A stretch of DNA of 13,524 bases, taken from an uncultured Verrucomicrobiota bacterium (GTDB taxonomy: Bacteria; Verrucomicrobiota; Verrucomicrobiia; Chthoniobacterales; SZAS-18). The notes below the pieces were generated by a model. That model did not search any database, was not told the origin of the DNA, and worked only from the letters and a program-made list of their open reading frames with translations. Position 1 is the stretch's first letter. Each line of letters begins with the position of its first letter. Shown piece after piece: positions 464-13,506 of the stretch. The position numbers were made by a program, and so were the translations under genes. Where the stretch lies: contig CALMVM010000167.1 in the NCBI GenBank assembly GCA_937873255.1, forward strand, positions 5,521 through 19,044. Reading direction: 5' to 3'.

Positions 464-1240
464 TCAGTGGTTGTTGCCCGCATCGACGCCTGCGCCCACG
501 TAGGCGATGTTGATGCACGCCGAGCAAAGATTGTCCCGGTATTTGGCGGTCGCGCTGCTCACGTAGATCCCGTAGTTGCATTGGGCGACCCGGTTGTTGA
601 CGATCTGTCCGTTCTCGCCCCCGTAGGCAATCCCGATGACTTGGCCGCCGGGCCGGGGGGCGAATCCAAGCAGGTCGCAGTCGACCACCCGCAGGTTGTT
701 GCCTGTCGCCACGATGCCGTAGGCCGAGGTGTCGACCACGCCGGTGCTCCCGCCAGTGTCGAGGACGCGGCAGCCTCTGACGAGAGTGTTGGCAGCGACG
801 GAATAGATCCCGATGTAGGTGATGCCGATCCCGGCGGTGTTTTCGATGCGTGTGTTGGTACCCGAGGTGAACACGCCGTAAGCAAAACCGGTGAGCTGTC
901 CGTTGATGATCGAGACGTTGTTACCTATGACGTTAATGGCCGTGCTGGAACTGCTCAGGCCGCTCGAATCGGTCAGGGTGTGGCCGTTGAAGTCCAAGGT
1001 GACGTTGTTGGCGCTGACGGTGATGGCGGTCTGGTTGCTGACCGAAAGGCCATCGACAGCCACGTAGTAGGTGCCCGGACTCGTAATAGGATAAGGCAGG
1101 CTGGTGATGGCCGTGGCTCCCGAGGAAGCGGTCGTTTCCGCCAGGCAAGAAACTCTCGCGCAAAGCACGAGGAGGATCGTCAGCAGGGCGAAAAGACAAG
1201 AGCGGACAGAGGCACGCGAGGAAAGCAAAGCGGCGTTCAT
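464..1240 (-). CDS. Exported parallel beta-helix repeat protein
   Basis: This 258-residue protein has a clear signal peptide at residues 1-34: a short n-region, the hydrophobic core LFALLTILLVLCA, and cleavage near SCLA before ETTASSG. Residues 35-258 are a regular series of short beta-rich units (NNVTLDFNGHTL, NNVSIINGQLTGFAYG, NNLRVVDCDLLGF, GENGQIVNNRVAQCNYGIY), the pattern of right-handed parallel beta-helix (PbH1/NosD-like) domains. The end, KYRDNL...GVDAGNNH, is a usual terminus for such proteins, so the gene looks complete although short, with few helix rungs. No catalytic residues of pectate lyases can be assigned. The paralogue at 1-409 lies immediately downstream, and the pair looks like a tandem duplication. 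Role unknown; export to the periplasm, outer membrane or medium is predicted. The ATG lacks a good Shine-Dalgarno sequence. Confidence 0.8.
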   Translation of the reverse strand: MNAALLSSRASVRSCLFALLTILLVLCARVSCLAETTASSGATAITSLPYPITSPGTYYVAVDGLSVSNQTAITVSANNVTLDFNGHTLTDSSGLSSSSTAINVIGNNVSIINGQLTGFAYGVFTSGTNTRIENTAGIGITYIGIYSVAANTLVRGCRVLDTGGSTGVVDTSAYGIVATGNNLRVVDCDLLGFAPRPGGQVIGIAYGGENGQIVNNRVAQCNYGIYVSSATAKYRDNLCSACINIAYVGAGVDAGNNH

Positions 1241-1687: not shown

Positions 1688-2461
1688 CCCGCGCGAGAGC
1701 CCCTGCTCGCCGACCGGTTCTCGCGCCGCACCGCGCAGATTGAGCGTCTCGCGACGGCAAAAGGTATTACTGACGCCAAGCAAAAAGACGCGCTCGGAGC
1801 GGCGAGCCGGGCAGGCAAGCGGCGGGGACTGACGACTGCCGACCTCCAAGCCGCTTGGGCGGCGCGGCTGACGCCGGAAGAAAAGGCGCAGATTTTATCC
1901 ATCGGCAAAGCGGCGAGGCCCGGTTTTCGCCAGCAGTCGATCACCTCGGAGCGGGCACTGGACGAAGCCTGCGAGAAACTCTTCGCCAAAAACGCCGTCG
2001 CCGACACGAAGCGCGTCGTCGCGGAGGCGTTGCGCTTCGGCGTGGGGCAGGTAAGGCCGGAGGCCGTCTGGCAGGCGCTTGGAAAGCGCGACATGGTGGT
2101 GCGTCGTGTCGGTGCCGATTTCCTGTGCACGTCGGTCAACGTGCTGGCGGAAGAGGTTTCACTCATCAACTTCGTGCGCACGGGACGCGACCAGCACGCA
2201 CCGCTCGCCTCGCGGCACTTCAAACTCGGCAACCCGAAACTCTCGGCGGAGCAGCAGACGGCGGTGCGCCACATTCTCGGCAGTCAAGATCAGGTGATCG
2301 GCTTGCGCGGCGGCGCGGGGGTCGGCAAAACCACGTCAATGCAAGAGGTAGTCGCGCAGATCCAAGCGAGCGGACAACGGGTCTTTGCCTTCGCGCCGTC
2401 TGCCTCAGCTTCGCGCGACACTTTGCGAGAGGCCGGTTTAGCCGATGCGGAGACGGTTGCC
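1688..2461 (+). pseudogene. TrwC/TraI-type conjugative relaxase-helicase, internal fragment
   Basis: The frame is open from just after an in-frame TAA (1685-1687). It encodes about 258 residues colinear with the middle of MobF-type relaxases (TrwC/TraI). First comes a helical linker (RRTAQIERLATAKGITDAKQ, then LTTADLQAAWAARLTPEEKA). Next is a segment matching the region where these proteins read TTREVLAEE (here CTSVNVLAEEVSLINFVRTG). Last is the start of the helicase domain, LSAEQQTAVRHIL with Walker A GGAGVGKTT at about 2317-2343. The N-terminal relaxase domain with its tyrosines and the rest of the helicase (Walker B onward) are both missing. Intact relaxases nick oriT and unwind plasmid or ICE DNA during conjugation; this piece cannot. 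Homology stops near 2461, where the frame changes to a recombinase tail. It marks a former conjugative element at this locus. Confidence 0.8.
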
Positions 2462-2462
2462 C

Positions 2463-2564
2463 ATCATCCAGGGTTGGATGGGGAACGCCGATGCCTCGAC
2501 GACAGCGATTTACCTTGCGGTGAAGGATGACGAGGAGCGCGCTTTGATCGAAAAAACGTGGTGA
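2463..2564 (+). pseudogene. Tyrosine recombinase, C-terminal remnant
   Basis: In a different frame from the relaxase fragment, 33 codons and a TGA read IIQGWMGNADASTTAIYLAV and continue with an acidic helix ending in EKTW. This is the classic C-terminus of XerC/XerD-like phage integrases: the W-(M/L)-G-H box (here N replaces the usual H), then TT.IY with the nucleophilic tyrosine. The upstream catalytic R, K and HxxR are absent. It is unrelated in detail to the intact integrase at 2869-4155, so it is a second, older recombinase. The join to the relaxase piece at about 2462 is a deletion or recombination junction. Confidence 0.75.
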
Positions 2565-2657: not shown

Positions 2658-3059
2658 ATGGCAGAAAAAGAACATTTTGCTCGCATGGCGTTCTCACCCG
2701 CCGAATTCGCGGCACTGTTTGGCAAGTCGCAGACTTGGGGTTATCGACAAATTTACGCTGGCAAAGTCAAAGCGATTACTGAACACGGCCGCATCCTTAT
2801 CCCGGCAGCAGAAGCCGACGCCATCTTGAAGACCGCTGGAATTTATGATGGTGCCAAACCGAGGTCGGTTAGGACGAAAAGCGAGATGCAGAGCCTCGCG
2901 CCCCGGTTGACGAACGCTTGGCAGTCGTTTTTGACTGCTCGTCGTCAATCGCAGCAGTCCAAGATTTCGCCGCACGCGGCGGTTGGCGAGAAGAAGTGGC
3001 CTTCTTCTCCGTTTGCTCGTCGAGCCGCAATGGCGCGTCTATCGAAACCGGGTCGCTGA
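2658..3059 (+). CDS. Small HTH DNA-binding protein, excisionase-like
   Basis: This is 133 residues from the ATG at 2658; a TTG at 2652 and an ATG at 2685 are alternatives, and none has a good ribosome binding site. Residues ~10-60 (FSPAEFAALFGKS, WGYRQIYAGKVKAI, then GRILIPAAEADAIL) have the layout of MerR/HTH_17 excisionase-type winged helix domains: helix, turn, recognition helix, then a beta wing ending in an IP motif. The remainder is basic and low in complexity. Its last ~190 bases overlap the 3' end of the integrase gene on the opposite strand. Next to an integrase, a role as recombination directionality factor or as repressor of the module is plausible. The inverted repeat just upstream could be its binding site. 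The real protein might be shorter than the frame, because the overlapping C-terminus shows no recognisable domain. Confidence 0.7.
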   Translation: MAEKEHFARMAFSPAEFAALFGKSQTWGYRQIYAGKVKAITEHGRILIPAAEADAILKTAGIYDGAKPRSVRTKSEMQSLAPRLTNAWQSFLTARRQSQQSKISPHAAVGEKKWPSSPFARRAAMARLSKPGR

Positions 3060-4155
3060 CTTCTGGCGGATTTACTGGCGCAAAAGTCACTTTCTGTGCT
3101 TGGGCAACGCTATGCTCGCGCCGCAGATGTCCATAAGTGCGCATGGCGAGAGCGCCCCCGTCTTTGTGCCCGAGCCAGCGCGACACAGTGGGAATATCCA
3201 CGCCGCTTTCGATGCTGACGGTTGCAAAGAAGTGTCGAAGATCGTGGTGCGTGATTCGCGTCATCCCAATTTTTTTGGCCGCTCGGCTCATCGATTTCTG
3301 TGAGTGACGCACTAAAAATACTTTTGCAGAGCCCGGCTCGTCGCCCCGTCCAGTCCGCATATTTTTGAGAAGTTCACGTGCTTGCGGGATCGTTGGGACA
3401 CGTCGAACTTCACCGTTTTTTGTTCCTTCTTCGGGATCACCTTTCACGAAGATTTCGCCAGCTTCAAAATCCAAATCTCGCCACTCGATTTGAGCAGCTT
3501 CCGAAATTCGGCAGCCGGTAAAGGCTAGCCCCTGCACAAAATCAGCACAGTTTTGGGAATCTCGGCTGTGAGCTGAGCGCATTTCCGCAACGAATGCGGC
3601 AAACTGCGACCGGGTTGAGAGTTCGAGCCGTTTTGGTCTCACGGTTTTGCGATCCAGCCCCGTCGCCGGATTTGAATAAACGACACCGTTTTCAATCGCA
3701 ATATCGATTACATGCTTCACCAGCGACAACGTGTTGTTGTAACGGGTTGAACTGGCAATCTTTGCGTACCGCGCCGCCCAATCACGGCAGACATTGCCCG
3801 TGATCCGCTTAATCTCCATCGCAGCCACTTCCGGCCAGTGCTTGAAGAGTGCAGCAAGCGTCTGCGCCCAATACACTCGCGTCCGCCGCTTGATGCCTAC
3901 GTTTTTTTCGATCCGCTGCATGTGGAGTGCGGCAGCTTGCGCGAAAGTCATCTTGGCGTCTGACGGGTCGATATCCTTGCTCTTATGAATGCGATGCTCT
4001 TTCTGGATGATTGCAAGGCGAGCTTCGGCAACGGAAAAATGTGAGGTCTTGAGCGACTTCCAAATCTCCTTGCCATTTTGGTAGAGGCGCGCATAGTAGC
4101 GGCCTGATTTGTGGCGGACCAAGTTTTGGACACGCGTTTTTTCCCAAGTTTTCAC
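2869..4155 (-). CDS. Tyrosine recombinase (phage/ICE-type integrase)
   Basis: This is 428 residues from the GTG at 4155. I prefer that start to an upstream ATG at 4209 because a strong AAGGAG lies 9 bases before it. The N-terminus has an arm-type beta-sheet segment (SGRYYARLYQNGKEIW), followed by a helical SAM-like core-binding domain (~residues 70-165) and the catalytic domain (~180-345). All catalytic residues are present: R216 (GCRISEA), K246, H304 and R307 (HHDLRH), H330 (WLGH) and Y341 (MRTYGHL). A polar ~75-residue C-terminal tail with no domain overlaps the HTH gene. The enzyme should integrate and excise DNA by a Holliday-junction mechanism. It lies 93 bases from a tRNA-Thr gene, a common target. 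The gene looks lower in GC than the flanking genes by eye, consistent with transfer. It appears intact and potentially active. Confidence 0.93.
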   Translation of the reverse strand: MKTWEKTRVQNLVRHKSGRYYARLYQNGKEIWKSLKTSHFSVAEARLAIIQKEHRIHKSKDIDPSDAKMTFAQAAALHMQRIEKNVGIKRRTRVYWAQTLAALFKHWPEVAAMEIKRITGNVCRDWAARYAKIASSTRYNNTLSLVKHVIDIAIENGVVYSNPATGLDRKTVRPKRLELSTRSQFAAFVAEMRSAHSRDSQNCADFVQGLAFTGCRISEAAQIEWRDLDFEAGEIFVKGDPEEGTKNGEVRRVPTIPQARELLKNMRTGRGDEPGSAKVFLVRHSQKSMSRAAKKIGMTRITHHDLRHFFATVSIESGVDIPTVSRWLGHKDGGALAMRTYGHLRREHSVAQAQKVTFAPVNPPEVSDPVSIDAPLRLDEQTEKKATSSRQPPRAAKSWTAAIDDEQSKTTAKRSSTGARGSASRFSS

Positions 4156-4164
4156 GGCTGCTTT

Positions 4165-4170
4165 CTCCTT
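4165..4170 (-). promoter_or_regulatory. Shine-Dalgarno site deciding the integrase start
   Basis: Minus-strand AAGGAG stands 9 bases before GTG AAA ACT TGG at 4155. It is one of the few strong ribosome binding sites in the window and argues that the 18 codons upstream (ATG 4209) are not translated. Confidence 0.7.
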
Positions 4171-4248
4171 AAAAGGTTCAACCGTAGAAAACGACCGCGA
4201 AAAATGCAAGTTTGAACGTCGATCCTTGCCCCTTTCTCCTCTAGAAAC

Positions 4249-4320
4249 GCCAACGTAGCACAGCGGTAGTGCAGCTGATTCGTAATCAGCAGGTCATGGG
4301 TTCGAATCCCATCGTTGGCT
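4249..4320 (+). tRNA. tRNA-Thr (anticodon CGT)
   Basis: A complete cloverleaf can be drawn. Acceptor arms are GCCAACG and CGTTGGC, with discriminator T at 4320. The D arm is GCAC-AGCGGTA-GTGC. The anticodon stem GCTGA/TCAGC holds loop TTCGTAA, giving anticodon CGT, which reads the ACG threonine codon. The T arm is ATGGG-TTCGAAT-CCCAT. CCA is not encoded. It lies 93 bases from the integrase start, on the opposite strand and divergent from it. It is a likely chromosomal landmark for integration, although I found no second copy of its 3' end in the window. Confidence 0.95.
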
Positions 4321-4442
4321 CTCTCAACGCGAAGAGTTTGCAGATGAAACTACTGAAGAATAGATTTTCGGTAGGTCAATTGTAGGCCAATTCCTGCTGG
4401 CGCTGGTCTGGTGACATCCGTCGCAACGGAATGCTGCCCCGC

Positions 4443-5486
4443 TCACCCCTTGATCTGTCCTGATCCTTCAGATAACCCGTATCGACGCGTGTTGGGCATC
4501 CACAGAGCCGCCCCCAAGGTGACCAGGGTCATCAGCGCCACATAATAAAAGAACAAGCTCTCCCGGCCAGCATCCTTCAGGTACAGCGCGACGTATTCCG
4601 CCGTCCCACCAAACAACGCGTTGGCCACGGTGTAGGGCAGTCCCACGCTCAGCGCGCGCACCTCCGGCGGGAACAACTCGGCTTTTACCACGCCGCTGAT
4701 GGGAGGTGTAAAAACACCCGATGAGCAGGCTCCCCGCCATCAGAGCGAACACGGCCGGCGAATCGTGACTCAGCTTCGGCAGCGCCGTCATGATTGGCAC
4801 GATGCGCAGAACGACGCTGCCGCCGAAGATGAGCATGTTGCTCCTGCGGCCGACCGGTCGGACAGCGTGCCCAACAGGGGCTGCGCCAGCACGAAGACCA
4901 ACAGCGCGTCGGTCGTGAGGTTGGTCGCGGTCTTCGGGTCCAGCCCGACGCTGTTGACTAGGTATTTCTGCATGTAGGTCGTCGTCGTGTAGAAGTACAG
5001 CGAGCCGCCTATGGTGAAAGCCAGCGTGATGAGCAGCCCGCGTTTGTGGTCGAGCAGGGCGCGCAGCGAACCGGTCTTGCGGTGCATCAGGGTCTCAACC
5101 TTGGCGGTCTCCGCCAGCGTGCGGCGCAGGCCCAGCGCCACCAGCGACGCCACCGCGCCGACGGCAAAGGGAATGCGCCAGCCCCAGGCCTTGAGGTCGG
5201 CAGGCGTGAGCACCTGTTGCAAGACCATGACCACGCCCGAAGCGAGCAGTTGGCCGCCGCTGAGCGTGACGTACTGGAAGGACGAGAAGAAGCCGCGCCG
5301 CTCCTGACCGGCGACCTCGCTCATGTACGTCGCTGCCGTGCCGTACTCACCGCCCACCGGAAGCTCCTGGATGAGCCGTGCGAGCAGCAGCAGCGCGGGA
5401 GCCCATTCGCCGACGGACTGGTGGGTGCGCAGGCAGGCGATCAAGAGCGAGCCGAAGCACATGGTCATCAGTCCCCCTGCCTTCAT
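4443..5486 (-). pseudogene. MFS transporter (KgtP/metabolite:H+ symporter-like), truncated and frameshifted
   Basis: Three frames must be joined to read the protein. The first (from ~5486) runs through [11 protein letters not shown], the MHS-family signature [32 protein letters not shown] and [11 protein letters not shown] to LLGTLSD. One base is missing near 4855, where [10 protein letters not shown] would be restored. A second frame then continues from [14 protein letters not shown] to GCFYT. One extra G in the run at 4701-4703 breaks FYTSISG. The last frame runs from VVKAELFPPEVRALSVGLPY to the stop at 4443. The order and motifs match alpha-ketoglutarate permease-type MHS symporters of about 430 residues. 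The N-terminal ~90 residues, with the first two or three membrane helices, are absent; the sequence upstream belongs to a NACHT remnant. The two single-base changes could be sequencing errors, but the missing N-terminus makes it non-functional regardless. Confidence 0.85.
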
Positions 5487-5532
5487 GACGGATTCACACT
5501 TTTCAAGGGAGCCGATAACCGCTTCCAGTAGA

Positions 5533-6086
5533 TCATCCTCCTGGCCACAGGCCAGTCAATCTTTCCCCGGCGATGCGATCCCATTCGGCGGAACGGCAAA
5601 CGAGCACGACTCTCAAACGCTCCGGCGGTTCGTGCTTGATCAGCTCACAAAAGGCCCGGACAAATTCGGGCACCTTGCGCAGTCCTTCATCGATCCCCTC
5701 AATGATTAGCGTGACGTTGCCATTCTGTGCGTGAGCTTGCTTCCAAGGCTGGCTGTCGACGGTTAGTGATTTGAGCACCTCGACGTTGGGAACGCTTCGG
5801 CAGTGAAGCTTGAGCAGGCAATCCGGTGGTTTGGTCTCCCGGCGCAGCGGTCCGAGGCCCGCGTTGATAGCGATGGTCTTGCCCATTCCCGGACGCCCCA
5901 GCAACACAACGCATCGTTTGGCGAGAAGTTCTTCGATGGTTTGAACCCGTGGGTTATGCGCCCTGCTCCATTTTTGTCCGGGTCGGGAAGAAATCCGCGT
6001 CCATCTTCCCCGTAGTAAATTTGCTCGTTCCAAGGAGACCAGAACTGACGCCATTCCAGTACCTTCCCGGAGATCGAGCCGCTCAT
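5533..6086 (-). pseudogene. NACHT-type STAND NTPase, N-terminal remnant with frameshift
   Basis: Reading begins at an ATG at 6086 (6122 is also possible) with VLEWRQFWSP, then FLPDPDKNGAG. After a one-base frameshift near 5953-5957 it continues NPRVQTIEELLAKRCVVLLG. Walker A GRPGMGKT lies at 5875-5898, a Walker B-like VTLIIEGIDEG at about 5685-5715, and a VLVCRSAEW segment after it. This order, including the W-x-x-F-W-(C/S)-P start and the DPD box before Walker A, recalls large bacterial NACHT proteins found among defence genes. Such proteins run to over 1,000 residues; here everything after about residue 185 is missing and the frame stops at 5533 beside the broken transporter. Intact relatives sense invaders and trigger effector action. 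It is divergent from the hydrolase-protease operon, with a ~180-base intergenic stretch between them. Confidence 0.7.
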
Positions 6087-6265
6087 TCTGAAGAGCGTGC
6101 GCAAATGGATTTGTGCTGTCACCGATTTGTGACCGGCGTGTTTGCAGCGGAAAATGTGGGATGTCGTCCCGCGTCACCGCTCGCAACATCAGCCCATCTT
6201 TCCGGTCCTCCGCAAAAACCTTGACGCGCCGCAATTAGCCTGACAACAAAGGGTCCGAAAAGCAC

Positions 6266-7579
6266 ATGCCGATTGTTTATGTCCACGGTGTAGGAACGCG
6301 CTCGGAGAGGCAAGGTTATTCAGGAAACTGGGCAGCGATACAAACTTACCTGACACGCTACATCCTGCCGATCATTTCCTCCTCGCCTGCTCCTGAGCGT
6401 GTGACCGCCGCCTACTGGGGAGATTTAGGTGCGAGCTACCTTTTCGGACGGCGTTCGCGCCCGCGCAGTCCGCTCCTGGGCATGGGTGCAACTGACGAAC
6501 TCTCCGAAGCACAGCGCGCGATTCTCCTCGCGGGAAGTGAACCTGCCTTCTACGTCGCACCGGTCCCTGCGCCAGCACGGCCCTCACCGGGGCCGCTTCT
6601 GCCGGCTGGGCCGGTTCCCGGTTCGGAGCGTGCACCGGAGCCCCGCTTCCGCCTGCGCCAATTGGACGAGGATCAACTCAGCGATTTGCTCGTGGCAGAG
6701 ATTCAAAACCTCGAGGGCGACCAGAATGTTGTCGCGGCTTCCGTCGCCGCCGATGCCGTCGCCCACACGCCCGGGTTGCGGGACCGATTGCACCAATGCC
6801 ACAATCTCCGGGAAGAAATTGCGCTCGTCGAATCGCTGCTATCTGGAGAAATGGCTGCCGACGGTGCCGACGCACCGCTTCTGGCGCAGGGGGGCGGCGT
6901 GATCGGGCCGTTCCTCGCCCGCCTGCGTGACCGGATCAGGGAGACCGCCCTGCGGATCGACCAAGCCCCTGGCTTCCTGGCGTCGCGGTTGGCAGTGGAA
7001 GTTCGCCAGCCGTTGAACGATTTCATCACGGATTTCATTGGTGACGTGTTCACCTACCTGAGGCGGCGCGACGAGCCGCAGGAAAGCATCCCAACACGAA
7101 TCATGGACACGTTGGCGACGGCCCGCGCCGGCTCCCCTCCCGAGGAACCCCTGATCGTCCTCAGCCACAGCATGGGAGGCCAGATCATCTACGATCTGGT
7201 CACGTACTATCTGCCCCAGAGCGAGGCACATCGGAGCCTGCGTGTCGATTTCTGGTGCGCCGCGGCTTCCCAGGTTGGCCTGTTTGCGGAAATGGGCCTT
7301 TTCCGAGCCGTACGGCCGAACGCTGGTGACGCGCCGGACCGCGAAAAAATTCCTTTCCCTGACCGCCATCACCTCGGCGGATGGTGGAATGTCTGGGATC
7401 ATAACGATTTCATCAGTTATTCCTGCCGCGACATCGTCGCGGACGTGGACGACGAAGGGTTTAATAACGGCATGTCCCTCTTGGGTGCGCACAGCGGCTA
7501 TCTTCAACGGCCGAGTTTTTACCGGCGGTTTGCCCGCAAGTTGCAAGTCGCCAAGAACGAAGGGTGGCATCGCCCATGA
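6266..7579 (+). CDS. Alpha/beta hydrolase (lipase/esterase-like), first gene of protease operon
   Basis: The protein has 437 residues and starts MPIVYVHGVGTR, the first strand and oxyanion loop (HGVG) of alpha/beta hydrolases; there is no signal peptide, so it is cytoplasmic. The AYWGD motif at 49-53 is common in this subfamily. The nucleophile elbow is S-H-S302-M-G-G in LIVLSHSMGGQIIYDLV. The likely acid is D378 or D381 (VWDHNDF), and the likely general base is H409 (GAHSGYL). Between the first strands and the elbow lies a ~240-residue insertion, proline-rich around 95-125 and helical afterwards, which could be a lid or partner-binding region. The stop overlaps the next gene's ATG (ATGA), indicating translational coupling to the caspase-like protein. 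Substrate unknown; acyl lipids are an inference. The start has only a weak AAGGG 12 bases upstream. Confidence 0.85.
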   Translation: MPIVYVHGVGTRSERQGYSGNWAAIQTYLTRYILPIISSSPAPERVTAAYWGDLGASYLFGRRSRPRSPLLGMGATDELSEAQRAILLAGSEPAFYVAPVPAPARPSPGPLLPAGPVPGSERAPEPRFRLRQLDEDQLSDLLVAEIQNLEGDQNVVAASVAADAVAHTPGLRDRLHQCHNLREEIALVESLLSGEMAADGADAPLLAQGGGVIGPFLARLRDRIRETALRIDQAPGFLASRLAVEVRQPLNDFITDFIGDVFTYLRRRDEPQESIPTRIMDTLATARAGSPPEEPLIVLSHSMGGQIIYDLVTYYLPQSEAHRSLRVDFWCAAASQVGLFAEMGLFRAVRPNAGDAPDREKIPFPDRHHLGGWWNVWDHNDFISYSCRDIVADVDDEGFNNGMSLLGAHSGYLQRPSFYRRFARKLQVAKNEGWHRP

Positions 7580-9561
7580 ATCTCCAACTCGATCCCGCGA
7601 TCCCCGGCCGCTGGATCAATCTGGATTGGCAGCCCGGCACTCCCGGCACGTTCGCGGTCGTCGTCGGCGTGAGCCGTTACCATCACCTCGACGACCAGAC
7701 GCGGTTGGCTCTCGGGCCGCTCGCCGTTTCCGCCCTCACGGCAATCCGGTTTTTTGAGTGGCTGCGCGACTCCTACCGCCTGGCCGATTGCCCGCTGGCG
7801 GCTTGTCACCTGCTACTGTCCCCGACCGTGGAGGAGGCCGGCTTGGGCGGTCTTTTCACCCAGAACCCGTGCGAGCCAAGTTTCAACGGCTGCACAACGG
7901 CCATCGGCCAGTGGTTTCAGGACATGAAAAATCTCCCGGACGCTGCCGCGCGGGCGAGCCGTTCGTTTTTTTTCTTCAGCGGCCACGGGTTGGAAATCTA
8001 CGAGGGGCAGCAAATTCTGCTGCCTTCGGACTACCTCGCTCCGCCGGCCAAAAGCGTGAATCTTGCCCTGAGCACGGACAATCTCACTCGCGGTTTGCGA
8101 GCGCTCCCGGTTTCCACGCATTTCTTCTTTCTCGACGCGTGCCGCTCCGATCACGACAGTCTGGACCATCTGGAGGCTGTGACCGGGACGGCGATCCTCA
8201 ACGTGCGCAAACGCCGTTTCAACAACCCCGACGCCTACGTGCCGGTCCTGTACGCCACGGCTGGTACGGCTTGGCAGCCCCGCAAGTTGGAAGACCAACC
8301 GTCGGTCTTTGGCAGCGCGTTGCTTGACGGTCTGCACGCTCGGCCGGACTTCCGTCCGACGCGCGGCGAGAACGACACTTGGCAGGTCCAGCCGGAGCCG
8401 CTCCGCGGTTTTGTCAGGAAGAGGGTCAAGGACATCCTGCGCCGTTATGGGTCGGGCTACGTGCAGGATGTCAGGCTCTCCGAGTCGAGCGACGCACCCG
8501 TCACCGAGGTGGACTTCGATCCTCTCAGGCTCGATGCGGGGGAGATCGACGGCCTGGAGTTGGCGGCCACTCGCACCGGGCGCGCCGAGGGCATGAGTCC
8601 ACCTAGCGAGAGGCGACTGATCGTCACTCCGGTCCGGCCGCGCGACCTCTCCGAAGCCAGCAGCCTGATCAAAAGCCGGTTCCTCGCCAAGGTTCTGACG
8701 GAAGGAGTGGCCGTCTACCATTTGCAGACCGGTTCGCGACGCAGCACGGCACGGGACTACAAATTGCACAACGTGGTCCGCTCGCGGCACGATGGCTCCG
8801 TGCGGCTGGAGATCGGCGTGCCCCCCAGTCCCATCATCCGGACCGCGCCGCCGGCCGGCAGCAGTTGGATCAACATCGACGACGGGGTGCGTCGATTCGG
8901 CTTTGTCCTGCCGAACGATCTCCGGCCGCCCATCTTCGCCGTCGAGGCAATTGAAGGAATCGCGGAAGGAAAACCGCAGATCACCCAACTGAGGATCTTC
9001 CTCGCGCGAAGCAACAAGGGTTTGCTCGGCCAGGCCGCGCGGCTGTGGAGCCGCTACGACCAGATCGGTCCATTGAACGCCGTGGCAAAAATCGACTTGC
9101 GCGGACTCGAAGACGCCCTTCGCTACAAGCTGGACTCGCCTCTCGCTGCATTGGTCGCGGGCACCGTCCTGCTGCGGGCGCGCGCTTGGAATCAATTGCA
9201 CGACTGGCTGGGGAATCTGGCCGTTCTTTTCCCCGCGCTGCCCGACGGGCCGGTCCTTTGGAACGAGCAGTTGCTATCGAAAGAAAGGACAGACCCCGCC
9301 GACCGGCGCGTCGTCGAGGGACTTCTATCTCTGGAAAAGCGCGGACTTCCGTTCACAGCCGACGCCTTCGGCTACGCCGTGCGACAGGTACGCGATGCCC
9401 TAGAGGATGAAAATCTTTCCGGAGATCATCACGAACGTCTCTCCAACCTCCAGCACCGACTTGGCCAAGCCTTGCGATTTTTGCGATCCGGCGGTCTGTT
9501 CTGCGTTTTTGCCGGTCCGCCGCGCCTGCTACGCCGTCAACTGATCATGCGTTGGCGTTGA
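7576..9561 (+). CDS. Caspase-like cysteine protease (peptidase C14) with long C-terminal extension
   Basis: The protein has 661 residues from the ATG at 7576, chosen because it overlaps the preceding stop; a GTG at 7564 is in frame. Residues ~22-255 form the caspase fold: first strand TFAVVVGVSRYHHLDD, then SFFFFSGHGLE with catalytic H137, then THFFFLDACRSD with catalytic C189. A region rich in strands and helices without a recognised domain follows (~300-500). The C-terminal helical part (~515-640; SPLAALVAGTVLLRARAWNQ, then W-x-G-N-L and LPDGPV) I recall loosely from other bacterial caspase and conflict-type proteins. No signal peptide or membrane segment is evident. Bacterial C14 enzymes cut after basic or acidic residues, and several act in abortive infection. 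Targets here could be the neighbouring subtilase, the hydrolase or the cell itself; none is shown by sequence. Confidence 0.88.
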   Translation: MNLQLDPAIPGRWINLDWQPGTPGTFAVVVGVSRYHHLDDQTRLALGPLAVSALTAIRFFEWLRDSYRLADCPLAACHLLLSPTVEEAGLGGLFTQNPCEPSFNGCTTAIGQWFQDMKNLPDAAARASRSFFFFSGHGLEIYEGQQILLPSDYLAPPAKSVNLALSTDNLTRGLRALPVSTHFFFLDACRSDHDSLDHLEAVTGTAILNVRKRRFNNPDAYVPVLYATAGTAWQPRKLEDQPSVFGSALLDGLHARPDFRPTRGENDTWQVQPEPLRGFVRKRVKDILRRYGSGYVQDVRLSESSDAPVTEVDFDPLRLDAGEIDGLELAATRTGRAEGMSPPSERRLIVTPVRPRDLSEASSLIKSRFLAKVLTEGVAVYHLQTGSRRSTARDYKLHNVVRSRHDGSVRLEIGVPPSPIIRTAPPAGSSWINIDDGVRRFGFVLPNDLRPPIFAVEAIEGIAEGKPQITQLRIFLARSNKGLLGQAARLWSRYDQIGPLNAVAKIDLRGLEDALRYKLDSPLAALVAGTVLLRARAWNQLHDWLGNLAVLFPALPDGPVLWNEQLLSKERTDPADRRVVEGLLSLEKRGLPFTADAFGYAVRQVRDALEDENLSGDHHERLSNLQHRLGQALRFLRSGGLFCVFAGPPRLLRRQLIMRWR

Positions 9562-9589
9562 TAAGCCGGTCCGGGAATTTTCTGCGACG

Positions 9590-10789
9590 ATGAGAATCTC
9601 AGTGAAAGTCCAACGCGAGGGCACTCCGGCAGAGGGAGCAGGTGTCATGTTCGACCTGGTGCCCCTCGACGGCGGATCGTGGAAGCGCACCGAGCACATC
9701 TGGGCCGATTCTGCGGGGATGGCGTATTGCGAGTACGACGAGGGCAAATACAGAGTGCGCCTCGTGACCATCTGCGCGCTCGATCACTGGCAGGTCCGGG
9801 TGCGCGAACCGGAGAGCTTTGAATCGGTCAGTCTTGAGCGTTTACCCAAGGACGGCCCGCTCGGATGGTGGCACCGTGCCATCGGCATTAACCGATTTGA
9901 CGCAGGCCGGGGGTGTGGCATCCATATCGGAGTGATCGACACGGGCATCAACCCCCATCGGGCGCTGGAGCACGTACGCGACCTTGGTTCCGTGGAGGAG
10001 ATGACCCATCGCCCCATGGAATCCGGCGACATTTGGGGACACGGAACCCATGTCTGCGGCATCATCTGCGCCCGGCCGCCCATGCCGGGGGAATTCGGCG
10101 GCATCGCCCCCGGCGCGACGCTGTCCTCGATCCGCGTGGCGTCCGGCTCGTCCGACGGTGATGAACTCCTCCCGCAGGACGGCGTGGCAGAAGCCATTGA
10201 GATGCTGGTCGAGGACCACGGCGTGGACCTGATCAACATCAGCATGGGGATGGTGTCCGCGAGCGCGGTGCTCGAAGCCCGCATCGCCGGGGCGTTCGAG
10301 AAAGGCGTTTTGTGCATCTGCGCCGCCGGCAACGACGGCAGGGCCGGCGTGCATTACCCCGCCGCTTGTTCCCGGGCTGTGGCCGTCTCTGCCGTGGGCA
10401 GGTATCAATACGGACCGGAACCCAACGAGTACCGCCCTACCGAGCCGGAAAAGCTGGCAGCGGGAGATTATTTTTTCGCGGCTAGCAGCAACTTCGGTCC
10501 CGGTATCGCTTGTTGCGCGCCGGGGGTGCGGATCATTTCCACCGCTTGGAGTGACCAGGAGAGCTATGTCGAAATGACAGGCACTTCGATGGCCAGCCCC
10601 GCTGCGTGCGCTGCCCTGGCCTGCCTGCTAGCGGAAGACCCCGTTTTCCGTTCCATGGACCGGACGGCCGCCCGTGCCGACCACGCGCGAAAGGTGCTGG
10701 AAAATGCCTGCCGCCCTACCGGGCTGTCCGATCGATACGAGGGGCGCGGACTTGTCCAAGCATTTTCGCCAGGCCCACCACCTGCTTGA
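9590..10789 (+). CDS. Subtilisin-like serine protease (S8) without signal peptide or prodomain
   Basis: The protein has 399 residues. Residues ~1-75 are a beta-rich module (VKVQREGTPAEGAGVMFDLV, DSAGMAYCEYDEGKYRVRLV) resembling a carboxypeptidase-regulatory/transthyretin-like domain, not an I9 prodomain. The catalytic domain follows: D117 (IGVIDTGI), H151 (GHGTHVCG), oxyanion N248 (CAAGNDGR) and S333 (MTGTSMASP). All four key residues are present. No signal peptide exists, so it should act in the cytoplasm. Several cysteines (C156, C160, C242, C244, C260, C308, C309) suggest a reducing environment or redox control. It lies 28 bases after the caspase gene and 58 bases before a small I9-like gene, in the same direction. 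Cytoplasmic subtilases are usually kept inactive; the separate small protein may do this. Confidence 0.93.
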   Translation: MRISVKVQREGTPAEGAGVMFDLVPLDGGSWKRTEHIWADSAGMAYCEYDEGKYRVRLVTICALDHWQVRVREPESFESVSLERLPKDGPLGWWHRAIGINRFDAGRGCGIHIGVIDTGINPHRALEHVRDLGSVEEMTHRPMESGDIWGHGTHVCGIICARPPMPGEFGGIAPGATLSSIRVASGSSDGDELLPQDGVAEAIEMLVEDHGVDLINISMGMVSASAVLEARIAGAFEKGVLCICAAGNDGRAGVHYPAACSRAVAVSAVGRYQYGPEPNEYRPTEPEKLAAGDYFFAASSNFGPGIACCAPGVRIISTAWSDQESYVEMTGTSMASPAACAALACLLAEDPVFRSMDRTAARADHARKVLENACRPTGLSDRYEGRGLVQAFSPGPPPA

Positions 10790-10847
10790 TTTTACCGTTG
10801 TTTTGTGGTTGCTTAGCTCCCCCATTTTACCCGAGGATTCGCCCTTT

Positions 10848-11069
10848 ATGCAGAACCGGACTTACGTCATCGCCCGCAAGTGCGCGCAGTCGGCCGCCGA
10901 ATGGAAGGCTGTGGTCGGGAAGCTCCTCGCCATTTCTGGCGTCGAGATTAGCGCCCGAGGACGCAGTCAGGTGAAGGTGGAGATCGACGCGCGGACATAC
11001 AAGAAAATTGCGCAGCAGATCGGTGACGAATGCATCATCGAACCGCGCATGTACCTCAAACCGGCCTAG
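10848..11069 (+). CDS. Small protein with I9-like (subtilisin propeptide/inhibitor) pattern
   Basis: The ATG at 10848 gives 73 residues; GAGG lies 11 bases upstream. The frame extends further upstream, but into the subtilase gene, so this start is preferred. The predicted pattern is strand (TYVIARK), helix (SAAEWKAVVGKLLAI), strand (GVEISARG), strand (SQVKVEID), helix (ARTYKKIAQQIGDE), strand (CIIEPRMYLKP). That is the order of the I9 propeptide of subtilisins, including the final segment IIEPRMYLKP at the place where propeptides end V-E-x-D and enter the active site. I infer a trans-acting inhibitor or folding chaperone for the S8 protease encoded just before it, which lacks such a prodomain. 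Similarity is by pattern only and other ferredoxin-like folds are possible. Confidence 0.6.
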   Translation: MQNRTYVIARKCAQSAAEWKAVVGKLLAISGVEISARGRSQVKVEIDARTYKKIAQQIGDECIIEPRMYLKPA

Positions 11070-11194
11070 ATGGTCCCCGCACGATGGTGGGGAGGGGCGA
11101 ACCGTCGCCGCCGTGCGATTCCCCCGGCCGCCATTTTGCGGGGGGCTCGTGATGGATGGTTCTCGGGGTCTGGTTACTAGTGGTCCTTATAAAC

Positions 11195-11215
11195 GAACGT
11201 TGAGTCGAAACGTTC
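11195..11215. repeat. Short perfect inverted repeat (7-bp arms)
   Basis: GAACGTT and AACGTTC flank a 7-base spacer, about 125 bases after the end of the small I9-like gene and near the 3' edge of the glycosidase fragment. It could be a protein-binding site, a hairpin after the operon, or a recombination site at the mosaic junction. There is no T-tract. Chance occurrence is possible. Confidence 0.4.
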
Positions 11216-11235
11216 TGTCCGGGCGCGCTGGCAAG

Positions 11236-11727
11236 CATGAGCTTCACGCCGAACACTCCGTCGGCGATGTCACTGGGCCGCGATCGGAAGCGCACGGTGA
11301 TCCGGGCCTTGCCCTTGGTCGATTTGGCTGGCAGATCGTAGACCTGATTGAAGAAATCACCGGGACGGTTGGTCAACAGACGTTGGCTGGTCAACGGCTG
11401 GTCGTCGACTAGCAGATCGAACCGGCGCTCGTGCCAGACCCCGCCCCAGTAGGTCACGACGAGCGCGACTGGTTCCTCGGTGTTCACCGCCATTTCATAG
11501 GAAAACCAGCCGCCGCCGCGCGCAAGGCGGCACCTGCGATCCGCGAAATCCTCGATCTCACTTCTCTCCGCACGCAGGGCGTGCTCCACCTTGGGCTGCT
11601 GGTAGCCGGGCGTCACCTGGTCGAGGGCGGCCGCGTCCTGGCGCATACGCTCGATTAGCTCGGCGCGAATCTCGCCTTGGCGGCGTTGCCATTCGTCCGC
11701 GCTCAGCGGCGACCCCGCCACGGTGTA
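11236..11727 (-). pseudogene. GH127-type glycosidase (DUF1680 family), C-terminal fragment
   Basis: About 164 uninterrupted residues on the minus strand read YTVAGSPLSADEWQ, then VEHALRAERSEIEDFADRRC, GGGWFSYEMAV, ALVVTYWGG, RRFDLLVDDQPLTSQRL, NRPGDFFNQVYDLP, ITVRFRSRP and DGVFGVKLM. This succession matches the C-terminal region of beta-L-arabinofuranosidase-like GH127 proteins (ERSE...GRR, WFSYE, TYWG, RFD-LVDG, PG-FF, VTVRF, GGVFGVR). The catalytic barrel that should lie upstream is absent; the sequence beyond 11727 belongs to a plus-strand ORF. It is a remnant of a plant-polysaccharide degradation gene, convergent with the protease operon. Its sharp 5' end near 11722-11728 marks a recombination junction. 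Confidence 0.75.
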
Positions 11728-12448
11728 CCTCAACCGGCAGTACCTGCTCAAGGCTCTCGGCTTCGGACTGCGCCGGATCGGTGTGCAGGAGCCTTTGAAG
11801 CCCCTGCGCTTCAGCGACGGCGGCAGCCGCCAGATGATCGTCATGCCAGTGCGGGTGGACGCCAACCCGCCCACGCCGAAACCCGCTGCCCTAGTCCCTG
11901 CGCCGGTCAGCCCCGTCACCCCTGCCGCTGCGTCCACCGACGCCGCGCCGGATCAACCCACCACCCTCAATCCCAACCCACAACCACCAACCGAAGGGAA
12001 CAACACATCCATGCAGAACGGAACCAGCAACCAAGCCAACGGCAACGGGCACCAACCCGCTGTCGTCCACGAAAGCGCCTCGCCCGAGGAAAAGCCCAGC
12101 TTGGAGCAGGCGCTCGACCAGATCGAGAGCCTCAAGGCCAGCCTGCGGGCGGCCGTCGGCAGCCTCAACAATCTGATCGACATCGTGCGCCAAGCGCAGC
12201 GCGAGCGCCGGGTCAGCGAGCGCGAGGGTGCGGGGACGGTGACGGGTTTCTTCGAGCGCGATGGGCCGTTGCGCGGGGAAAAGACGGTCCTGCCGTGCCG
12301 GGGCGACGGGCCGCGCGTGTTCAGGACGCGCCGCGCCCTGTACCGCTTCAACGAGGGTACGGGGGAATTTGCGGGGTTGGCGGGGTACCGTAGAGCTTTT
12401 TTCCAGCGCGACACGCTGTATCAATTGGATGCATCGCAGCTCGCGTAA
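11723..12448 (+). CDS. Mosaic ORF: sliding-clamp-like end, linker, coiled coil, unknown tail
   Basis: The ORF starts with GTG at 11723 and encodes 241 residues. Residues 1-45 (YLNRQYLLKALGFGL, then PLKPLRFSDG and MIVMPVRV) resemble the last strand-helix units and the terminal MPxR motif of a DNA polymerase III beta clamp. The first two and a half clamp domains would be missing. Residues ~48-110 are a Pro/Ala/Asn/Gln-rich linker. Residues ~115-172 form a helical coiled coil (SLEQALDQIESLKASLRAAV, then LIDIVRQAQRERRVSER). The final ~65 residues (RTRRALYRFNEGTGEFAGLA, ending LDASQLA) are unrecognised. The ORF begins exactly where the GH127 fragment ends on the other strand, so it is probably a 5'-truncated gene from a mobile element rather than a whole protein. 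Translation is uncertain. Confidence 0.45.
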   Translation: MYLNRQYLLKALGFGLRRIGVQEPLKPLRFSDGGSRQMIVMPVRVDANPPTPKPAALVPAPVSPVTPAAASTDAAPDQPTTLNPNPQPPTEGNNTSMQNGTSNQANGNGHQPAVVHESASPEEKPSLEQALDQIESLKASLRAAVGSLNNLIDIVRQAQRERRVSEREGAGTVTGFFERDGPLRGEKTVLPCRGDGPRVFRTRRALYRFNEGTGEFAGLAGYRRAFFQRDTLYQLDASQLA

Positions 12449-12909
12449 ATGGGCTTGCTCGGGTTTGAGTTGGTCAGCTTGAAAAAATCCGCAAACCTTT
12501 TTCGCAATGGTCACGAGCTTGAGCGAGCAGCCAAATCCTGCGCGTCTCGGCTGCGCGGACGAAATAAGGGATATCGCTCATCGGGGAGCGCGCGCGCCCG
12601 GAGAGGGAAACTTTAAGCGGGAAGTGGTAACCCGAGTGACGTACACGGACGGAGATTCGTTTGTTGGATGATCCGGCTTGCCGTAGATGAATGCGGGTAA
12701 TATGCCTAACAGGTTGCGCCGCGACGGTGATGGCACTCCGTGGAATCCACAAAATGCTCCTCGATAAAACCCAATCACCACATCAGCGGACGAAGCTGCC
12801 GAAGCATGGCCGTAAAGCCAATCTTGCCTACGCAGGAGCGTTGTATCGACGAGGGCATTACCACGCGGATCGAACATTTCGCAAAGGATGTCACTAGCCT
12901 CGACAGGCG
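12449..12909. other. Intergenic stretch without a recognisable gene
   Basis: The roughly 460 bases hold only short frames with no recognisable motifs on either strand. Near the right end, before the NERD gene, I see no convincing -35/-10 pair with normal spacing, though TAATAT at about 12699-12704 could be part of a promoter. The stretch may include decayed sequence at another junction. Confidence 0.5.
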
Positions 12910-13506
12910 ATGCCAGAACCAGAGAAATATTGGAAAACTGTCACGCGTTCCCATTTTCAATGGGAGCAGGAGGCGCTGGATTTTATCCACGAACGGTTTC
13001 CCGCGCAGGACAACTACCGCGCGTGGTCAAATTTCGAGTTCATCGCAGACGATGGTTCCATTAACGAGGCTGACCTCCTCATTGCCTGCCCGCAAGGGGT
13101 CTTCCTAGTCGAGATCAAGAGCCATCCAGGAAAGTTGTCGGGCGACGCTGGGGAGTGGACCTGGAACTTCGAAGGCCGCAACAGAACCGTCGAAAGTCCC
13201 GTTATCCTCACGAATCGAAAATGCAAGCGGCTCAAGAGCCTCCTATCCCGACAGAAATCGTTCAAAAAGGAGCGCGTTCCCTTCATTGAGCCACTCGTCT
13301 TCGTTTCCCATCCGAACGTTTCCTCCTCATTGACCGGAACCGCCGAGCATTACGTCCGGCTGCGGGATACCGAACGCCGGCCGGGGATCATGGCGGCGAT
13401 CCGCCAACGTGACTGTCCCGGCCTCAAGCAGTTCGAGCATCAGGTTGTCGACCGGCCTCAGATCAGGGCGCTTGACGTGACTTCGCTTTTTCGAGCCGGG
13501 TGCTGA
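12910..13506 (+). CDS. NERD nuclease-domain protein, PglW (BREX type 2) N-terminus-like, short
   Basis: The protein has 198 residues. Residues ~18-135 are a NERD domain of the PD-(D/E)XK fold. YRAWSNFEFIADDGSIN leads to E53 and D55 (NEADLLI), then VFLVEIKS with E68 and K70, SGDAGEWTW, and TNRKCKRLKSLLSRQ, then FIEPLVFVSHP. From memory, this succession is closest to the N-terminus of PglW-type serine/threonine kinases of BREX type 2 phage-defence systems. Those proteins exceed 1,000 residues, with a kinase domain after the NERD part. Here homology fades after VVDRPQIRAL and a stop follows at 13504-13506, just before the window ends. It may be a truncated or frameshifted pglW, or a stand-alone NERD protein. 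The start ATG has only a weak AGG before it. Confidence 0.75.
   Translation: MPEPEKYWKTVTRSHFQWEQEALDFIHERFPAQDNYRAWSNFEFIADDGSINEADLLIACPQGVFLVEIKSHPGKLSGDAGEWTWNFEGRNRTVESPVILTNRKCKRLKSLLSRQKSFKKERVPFIEPLVFVSHPNVSSSLTGTAEHYVRLRDTERRPGIMAAIRQRDCPGLKQFEHQVVDRPQIRALDVTSLFRAGC

Follow-up and report, generated by a model that had tools for sequence, protein, structure and literature searches.

Caspase-like proteases encoded beside a partner enzyme have been described in several bacterial systems. In the antiphage loci called canu (for caspase-nuclease; KaeCanABC), a MALT1-like caspase (CanA), which has an Ig-like fold behind its protease domain, is accompanied by a second, helical component (CanB) and an MBL-fold pro-nuclease (CanC), and canu and related systems act by pro-enzyme cleavage, the caspase activating a pro-effector; the gating insertions hold conserved glycines, and defence was lost when either of the predicted cleavage sites was mutated (PMC12799240). 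In the VMAP-MoxR-vWA ternary systems, an alpha/beta-hydrolase gene invariably neighbours the VMAP caspase, as reported by Kaur et al. (PMC7159879). The locus described here lies in a 13,524-nucleotide stretch of DNA (hereafter the window) from an uncultured Verrucomicrobiota bacterium, namely bases 5521-19044 of a 19044-base contig in a genome of 5.0 Mb and 642 contigs. It is an operon of four genes on one strand that encode, in this order, an alpha/beta-hydrolase, a caspase, an S8 subtilase and a 73-residue protein (Table 1), in other words a caspase core like that of canu, whose partner is an alpha/beta-hydrolase, and as an accessory a subtilase with a probably detached propeptide. That the operon works as a caspase-activated effector system on the canu core, with the subtilase as an accessory arm, is the interpretation preferred here and is held to be somewhat probable.

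The first-pass annotation of the sequence had noted four intact same-strand genes, the first two joined by an ATGA overlap and the others following after gaps of 28 bases (caspase to subtilase) and 58 bases (subtilase to small protein), with the catalytic residues present; the layout was borne out by the coordinates, and the catalytic residues by motif positions and, in the hydrolase and the caspase, by alignment invariance. No signal peptide was seen by eye on any of the four proteins. The caspase is placed in family C14 by a PF00656 match of 28 bits (cut-off 21.4) together with a His-Cys dyad, H137 and C189 (DAC motif), both of which are invariant in an alignment of 38 sequences. Matches in the structure comparison span residues 20-313 only, residues 345-476 are predicted to be beta-rich, and residues 480-661 find their match in the second gene at loci of canu composition, for example in L086 (E 2e-12; the match in L091 is weak, E 5e-4). 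This helical part, a separate gene in canu-type loci, is fused to the caspase in the window, where it appears as the counterpart of CanB just as the MALT1-like domain corresponds to CanA, so that by sequence comparison the core of the operon is that of canu-type loci. Where canu has CanC, no MBL family was found among the ten window proteins covered by the Pfam scan, and an alpha/beta-hydrolase stands in that place, likewise a same-operon partner enzyme, carrying an additional segment as a possible gate; the subtilase and its propeptide are further additions relative to canu. PF27295 is listed for most homologues of the caspase. One homologue of the same family (P0133) carries a C-terminal Bacterial Death-like domain 1 (bDLD1), a likeness to the Bacterial Death-like domain systems (PMC8195603), from which the window caspase differs in having no such domain by Pfam. 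Another homologue (P0237) ends in an astacin metalloprotease.

That this core can be combined with different enzymes was followed in a tree of 25 caspase domains, in which 14 fused, hydrolase-linked proteins were split from 11 others (support 0.94 to 1.0). On plasmids of Sinorhizobium meliloti (L056) and Rhizobium etli (L090), a hydrolase of the window's family is followed by an unfused caspase and then a helical gene, and these two caspases fall among the 11 others (0.84 with L066); the hydrolase thus accompanies two caspase lineages, and the core accompanies different partner enzymes. Lipase-type neighbours recur beside such cores: a Tle1-like phospholipase gene is followed by caspase, helical and MBL genes in L085, and in L066 an S8 gene and a caspase precede a protein with a helical domain and Lipase_3, a trypsin-endonuclease protein being encoded one gene later. 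The whole L066 run, in the window's class (3119-12563, + strand), reads GDSL-like, S8, caspase, helical plus Lipase_3, a 151-residue protein, and trypsin plus Endonuclease_NS. In both L084 and L091 the third gene has no Pfam match. Two canu-like loci have neighbours of their own. In L067 (2663-10036, + strand), caspase, helical and MBL genes directly follow GajA and GajB, possibly a Gabija system with an added caspase-nuclease arm. On an Agrobacterium plasmid (L084, 2849-4226, - strand), a ThsB-like TIR gene and a caspase gene lie beside the canu-like core, an arrangement that we take to be reminiscent of type IV Thoeris.

The partner enzyme itself matched no Pfam family, and three of its homologues match Hydrolase_4/Abhydrolase_6 below the Pfam threshold. 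It is tentatively placed in the alpha/beta-hydrolase superfamily, as esterase-like, from its motif and invariant residues: the nucleophile motif HSMGG contains H301-S302, and S302, D378, D381 and H409 are invariant in a 40-sequence alignment, H409 and D378 or D381 being the candidate triad partners of S302. No solved structure was found by sequence with either the hydrolase or the caspase profile. A contig scan with the hydrolase alignment, which demanded that either of two short motifs be matched exactly, yielded 42 loci. A complete long-form hydrolase (>430 bits) was present in 13 of them (L002-L014), and in ten (L002, L003, L006, L007, L008, L010, L011, L012, L013 and L014) a caspase frame overlaps or follows the hydrolase end; the caspase is missing in L004, L005 and L009, all of them metagenome-assembled genomes (MAGs) of the cyanobacterial group. 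L042 has a broken hydrolase followed by a caspase, and the remaining 28 loci, without a caspase match, are mostly short forms of about 300-325 residues, some cut by contig ends. Since two of these (L018 and L023) are lower-scoring long hydrolases, a stricter pairing count is 10 of 15. Among the protein-database matches listed (120 hydrolase rows, query included, and 120 caspase rows), the two families share 27 host-contig sizes, compared with a mean of 0.69 and a maximum of 5 in 2000 shifted control trials, an equal size being indirect evidence of a common contig. The pair is also found on plasmids of Deinococcus and Agrobacterium. Hydrolase and caspase are a conserved unit that adjoins in other phyla, and the linkage between them that had been proposed at the outset has thereby held.

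The long form is distinguished by an insert whose three segments (Table 1) are absent in 14 of 14 caspase-less short forms and present in all 12 aligned hydrolases that are linked to fused caspases. It includes a variable linker, with 12 Pro and 7 Ala among 43 residues of the window protein, in which the conserved columns are L111 and G115 (each 38/40), then R129 and L130 (each 37/40). Conservation was judged on these column counts; a loose LxxxG-island motif, which occurred in 94 of 120 hydrolases and in 19% of shuffled sequences, was not relied on. The linker around L111-G115 is put forward as a candidate caspase cleavage gate, and the long-form hydrolase would be a pro-enzyme.

While the homology of the operon parts is well supported, the activation order, the substrate and the biological role are what we infer in the following scheme. 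A signal from infection or stress would act through the helical domain to activate the caspase, which, by cutting within the Pro/Ala-rich linker of the insert (near L111-G115), would open the active site of the hydrolase. The freed esterase or lipase could then attack lipids or other esters of its own cell, and the resulting growth arrest or death would halt the invader. The subtilase would form an accessory arm: its own propeptide, the separately encoded 73-residue protein, would keep it in a folded and inactive state, and loss or cleavage of that protein would release it.

The subtilase matches PF00082 with 122 bits (cut-off 21.8) and has the S8 catalytic residues D117, H151 and S333 and the oxyanion residue N248. 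Its closest relatives among the matches listed are of similar length (396, 395 and 399 residues; 55, 47 and 46% identical), and most of the others are about 500 residues long, with an additional N-terminal propeptide region that is absent in the window protein. The 73-residue protein belongs to no Pfam family. It scored 14.4 bits against a profile of 109 subtilase N-termini, for which the best of 1200 shuffled small proteins reached 8.1, and outscored all other frames of the compared loci; hhalign aligned its residues 5-71 with the propeptides (probability 70, E 4e-5). Its predicted fold (pLDDT 76, pTM 0.59) is beta-alpha-beta-beta-alpha-beta, the element order of I9 propeptides. In a structure comparison, pro-subtilisin E and POIA1 ranked among many unrelated proteins, ferredoxin-like folds scoring equally. 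The propeptide was thus probably split off and is now encoded downstream, and the most likely target of the small protein is the subtilase. The I9-like nature given to it in the first-pass annotation is supported by the propeptide resemblance, and nothing ties it to the caspase or the hydrolase, the other enzymes of the cascade that it was supposed to hold in check. Pleurotus POIA1 is a stand-alone subtilase propeptide. In Plasmodium, the propeptide-like inhibitor SUB1-ProM is encoded apart from, and near, subtilase genes (PMC6993865); the window case differs in being bacterial and within a single operon, and inhibition is here a proposal. Genes of 80-85 codons right after S8 genes in L054, L057, L059, L060 and L061 were considered as further detached propeptides and rejected, as neither the propeptide profile nor the 73-residue protein finds a match in their products. 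In L057, L059, L060 and L061, on plasmids of Agrobacterium, Rhizobium and Paracoccus, the gene (80-83 codons) starts within about 15 bases of the S8 gene, and in two of them a DNA/RNA non-specific endonuclease gene comes next.

It is quite possible, without being probable, that the subtilase and small-protein genes stand next to the hydrolase-caspase pair by chance and share no function with it. Among the matches listed, the subtilase shares one host-contig size with the hydrolase list (43524) and three with the caspase list (4997, 5127 and 43524), overlaps within the range of chance (about 0.7 expected for each, and up to 5 occurring). No close subtilase stands beside the pair in 11 other genomes, only one of which has a match at E <= 1e-20, on another contig. 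A conserved four-gene system was rejected on these grounds, so that of the four-gene unit originally proposed the hydrolase-caspase neighbourhood stood and the constant presence of the subtilase did not. Against mere chance, the 43524-base contig is listed for three proteins, namely the hydrolase P0016, the short-form subtilase P0246 and P0124, which is the best of the listed caspase relatives, so that one further locus with all three genes is likely, and in the window the genes follow one another on the same strand at short distances. Divergent subtilases occur near the pair in L002 and L012; an initial motif scan missed both, and its zero was not used. For the S8 family as a whole, 25 caspase cores were considered, the window among them, and 7 (G000, G203, G494, G501, W02, W04 and W05) have an S8 gene at a distance of about 10 kb or less, where 0.93 were expected from S8 density (P 5e-5); the excess persisted without the window (6/24, 0.91 expected, P 4e-4) and on chromosomes only without the window (3/13, 0.22 expected, P 0.001). 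The G501 contig is that of L012, as inferred from matching positions. Because the S8 genes concerned belong to different subfamilies and some plasmids are small, the proximity is an argument for repeated recruitment of S8 genes rather than for a single fixed operon, and the subtilase and small protein look like an accessory module.

Several points weigh against a caspase-activated system with a subtilase arm. The four-gene set has no recognised sensor, and in most loci no subtilase is found beside the hydrolase-caspase pair. The insert also occurs in five caspase-less long forms (L004, L005, L009, L018 and L023), which speaks against a strict link between insert and caspase, and the L056 hydrolase, linked to an unfused caspase, has no clear LxxxG in the alignment. 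The fold of the 73-residue protein is a common one, and the input alignment of its model already held propeptides. The likeness to canu, finally, is drawn from canu-type loci and not from an alignment with KaeCanABC itself.

The hydrolase and caspase might instead act in parallel, or the caspase might restrain the hydrolase, without activation by cleavage. In the five caspase-less long forms the insert may indeed serve otherwise, for example in substrate or membrane binding; its absence from every caspase-less short form and the pro-enzyme cleavage used by canu and related systems (PMC12799240) make this alternative unlikely. A two-stage zymogen cascade, in which an initiator paracaspase would open the pro-lipase and also destroy the separate propeptide, unleashing the subtilase as executioner, is conceivable by analogy with the caspases that free the DNase CAD from ICAD in animals, and is regarded as a little less likely still.

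Ordinary protein and ester turnover, with the subtilase and its propeptide as an intracellular housekeeping protease, is improbable. Intracellular subtilisins do process proteins in stationary phase elsewhere (PMC6220982), and a defence role of the four-gene set is a matter of inference. A housekeeping function agrees poorly with the distribution: a close caspase match was present in 1 of 97 relatives, which is the window's own genome (two more were weak and partial), in the class at E <= 1e-20 in 3 of 286, two of these matches being confined to the protease part, and in the phylum at E <= 1e-40 in 1 of 240 sampled genomes, again the window's own. Such patchiness is typical of an accessory system that moves horizontally, and the integrase and PglW fragments in the window and the pairs on plasmids point the same way. 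No relative of the 73-residue protein, or of the caspase and hydrolase alignments, was found among viral contigs, nor any hydrolase match among phage records; the subtilase alignment had one distant match among the viral contigs. Least probable is that the hydrolase-caspase pair is a stray VMAP-MoxR-vWA module whose VMAP partner is encoded at another place in the genome: the likeness is in the pairing (PMC7159879), Pfam found no VMAP, MoxR or vWA gene among the scanned window proteins, of 14 genomes that carry this caspase core, several of them incomplete MAGs, 13 lack VMAP-C, and the single VMAP-C gene of the window genome lies on another contig (C89, not C167), joined to trypsin-like and AAA domains, so that VMAP membership was rejected.

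The surroundings of the operon (Table 1) fit a mobile, defence-rich stretch. As the window runs to base 19044 of 19044, its right edge is the contig end. Among 94 proteins encoded near the pair at ten loci, PADLOC recognised 16 families, each represented by a single protein and including CBASS cyclases and phospholipase effectors, Cas5 and TPR, a tally that is not put forward as an enrichment. At window positions 464-1240 (- strand) and in L065 (2678-5929, - strand), similar tandem genes with an N-terminal hydrophobic stretch and parallel-beta-helix-like repeats were seen by eye.

Table 1. Features of the operon, its surroundings and a separate VMAP-type locus of the same genome.
Feature	Position	Strand	Remarks
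Hydrolase gene	6266-7579	+	437 residues; long-form alpha/beta-hydrolase; proposed pro-effector
Hydrolase insert, residues 74-217	codons 6485-6916	+	segments 74-86, 95-132, 145-217
Caspase gene	7576-9561	+	661 residues; ATG inside the ATGA overlap with the hydrolase end
Caspase parts (residues)			about 20-313 MALT1-like protease domain; about 345-476 beta-rich; 480-661 helical
S8 subtilase gene	9590-10789	+	399 residues; short form
Small-protein gene	10848-11069	+	73 residues; proposed detached (trans-acting) subtilase propeptide
TraI-like helicase fragment	2030-2530	+	left of operon; mobile-element remains
Tyrosine recombinase/integrase	2869-4209	-	left of operon; mobile-element remains
NACHT/STAND-like N-terminal fragment	5533-6234	-	divergent from operon; all matches below curated cut-offs; ends early, looks truncated
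DUF6805 gene	right of operon		convergent
PglW (BREX protein), N-terminal NERD part	12910-13506	+	ends at contig end
Trypsin-like - VMAP-C - AAA gene	L083 352-3483, contig C89 of window genome	+	separate VMAP-type conflict system

That no named system of this exact composition was known to the first-pass annotation agrees with the literature in so far as titles and the beginnings of abstracts mention no alpha/beta-hydrolase-caspase-subtilase operon or hydrolase-type canu (subscription papers being mostly outside the coverage); the composition does have precedents, the hydrolase-caspase pairing in VMAP systems (PMC7159879) and caspase-activated pro-effectors in canu (PMC12799240). If a caspase-activated effector system is indeed encoded here, the caspase-plus-helical core of canu would be a general activation module that swaps effectors, using a nuclease in one case and an esterase or lipase in another. 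It would then be understandable why bacterial caspases had been seen to travel with an alpha/beta-hydrolase, and a cleavage site would have been named; the subtilase, for its part, would be an example from bacteria of a protease that its former prodomain, now encoded separately, controls in trans.

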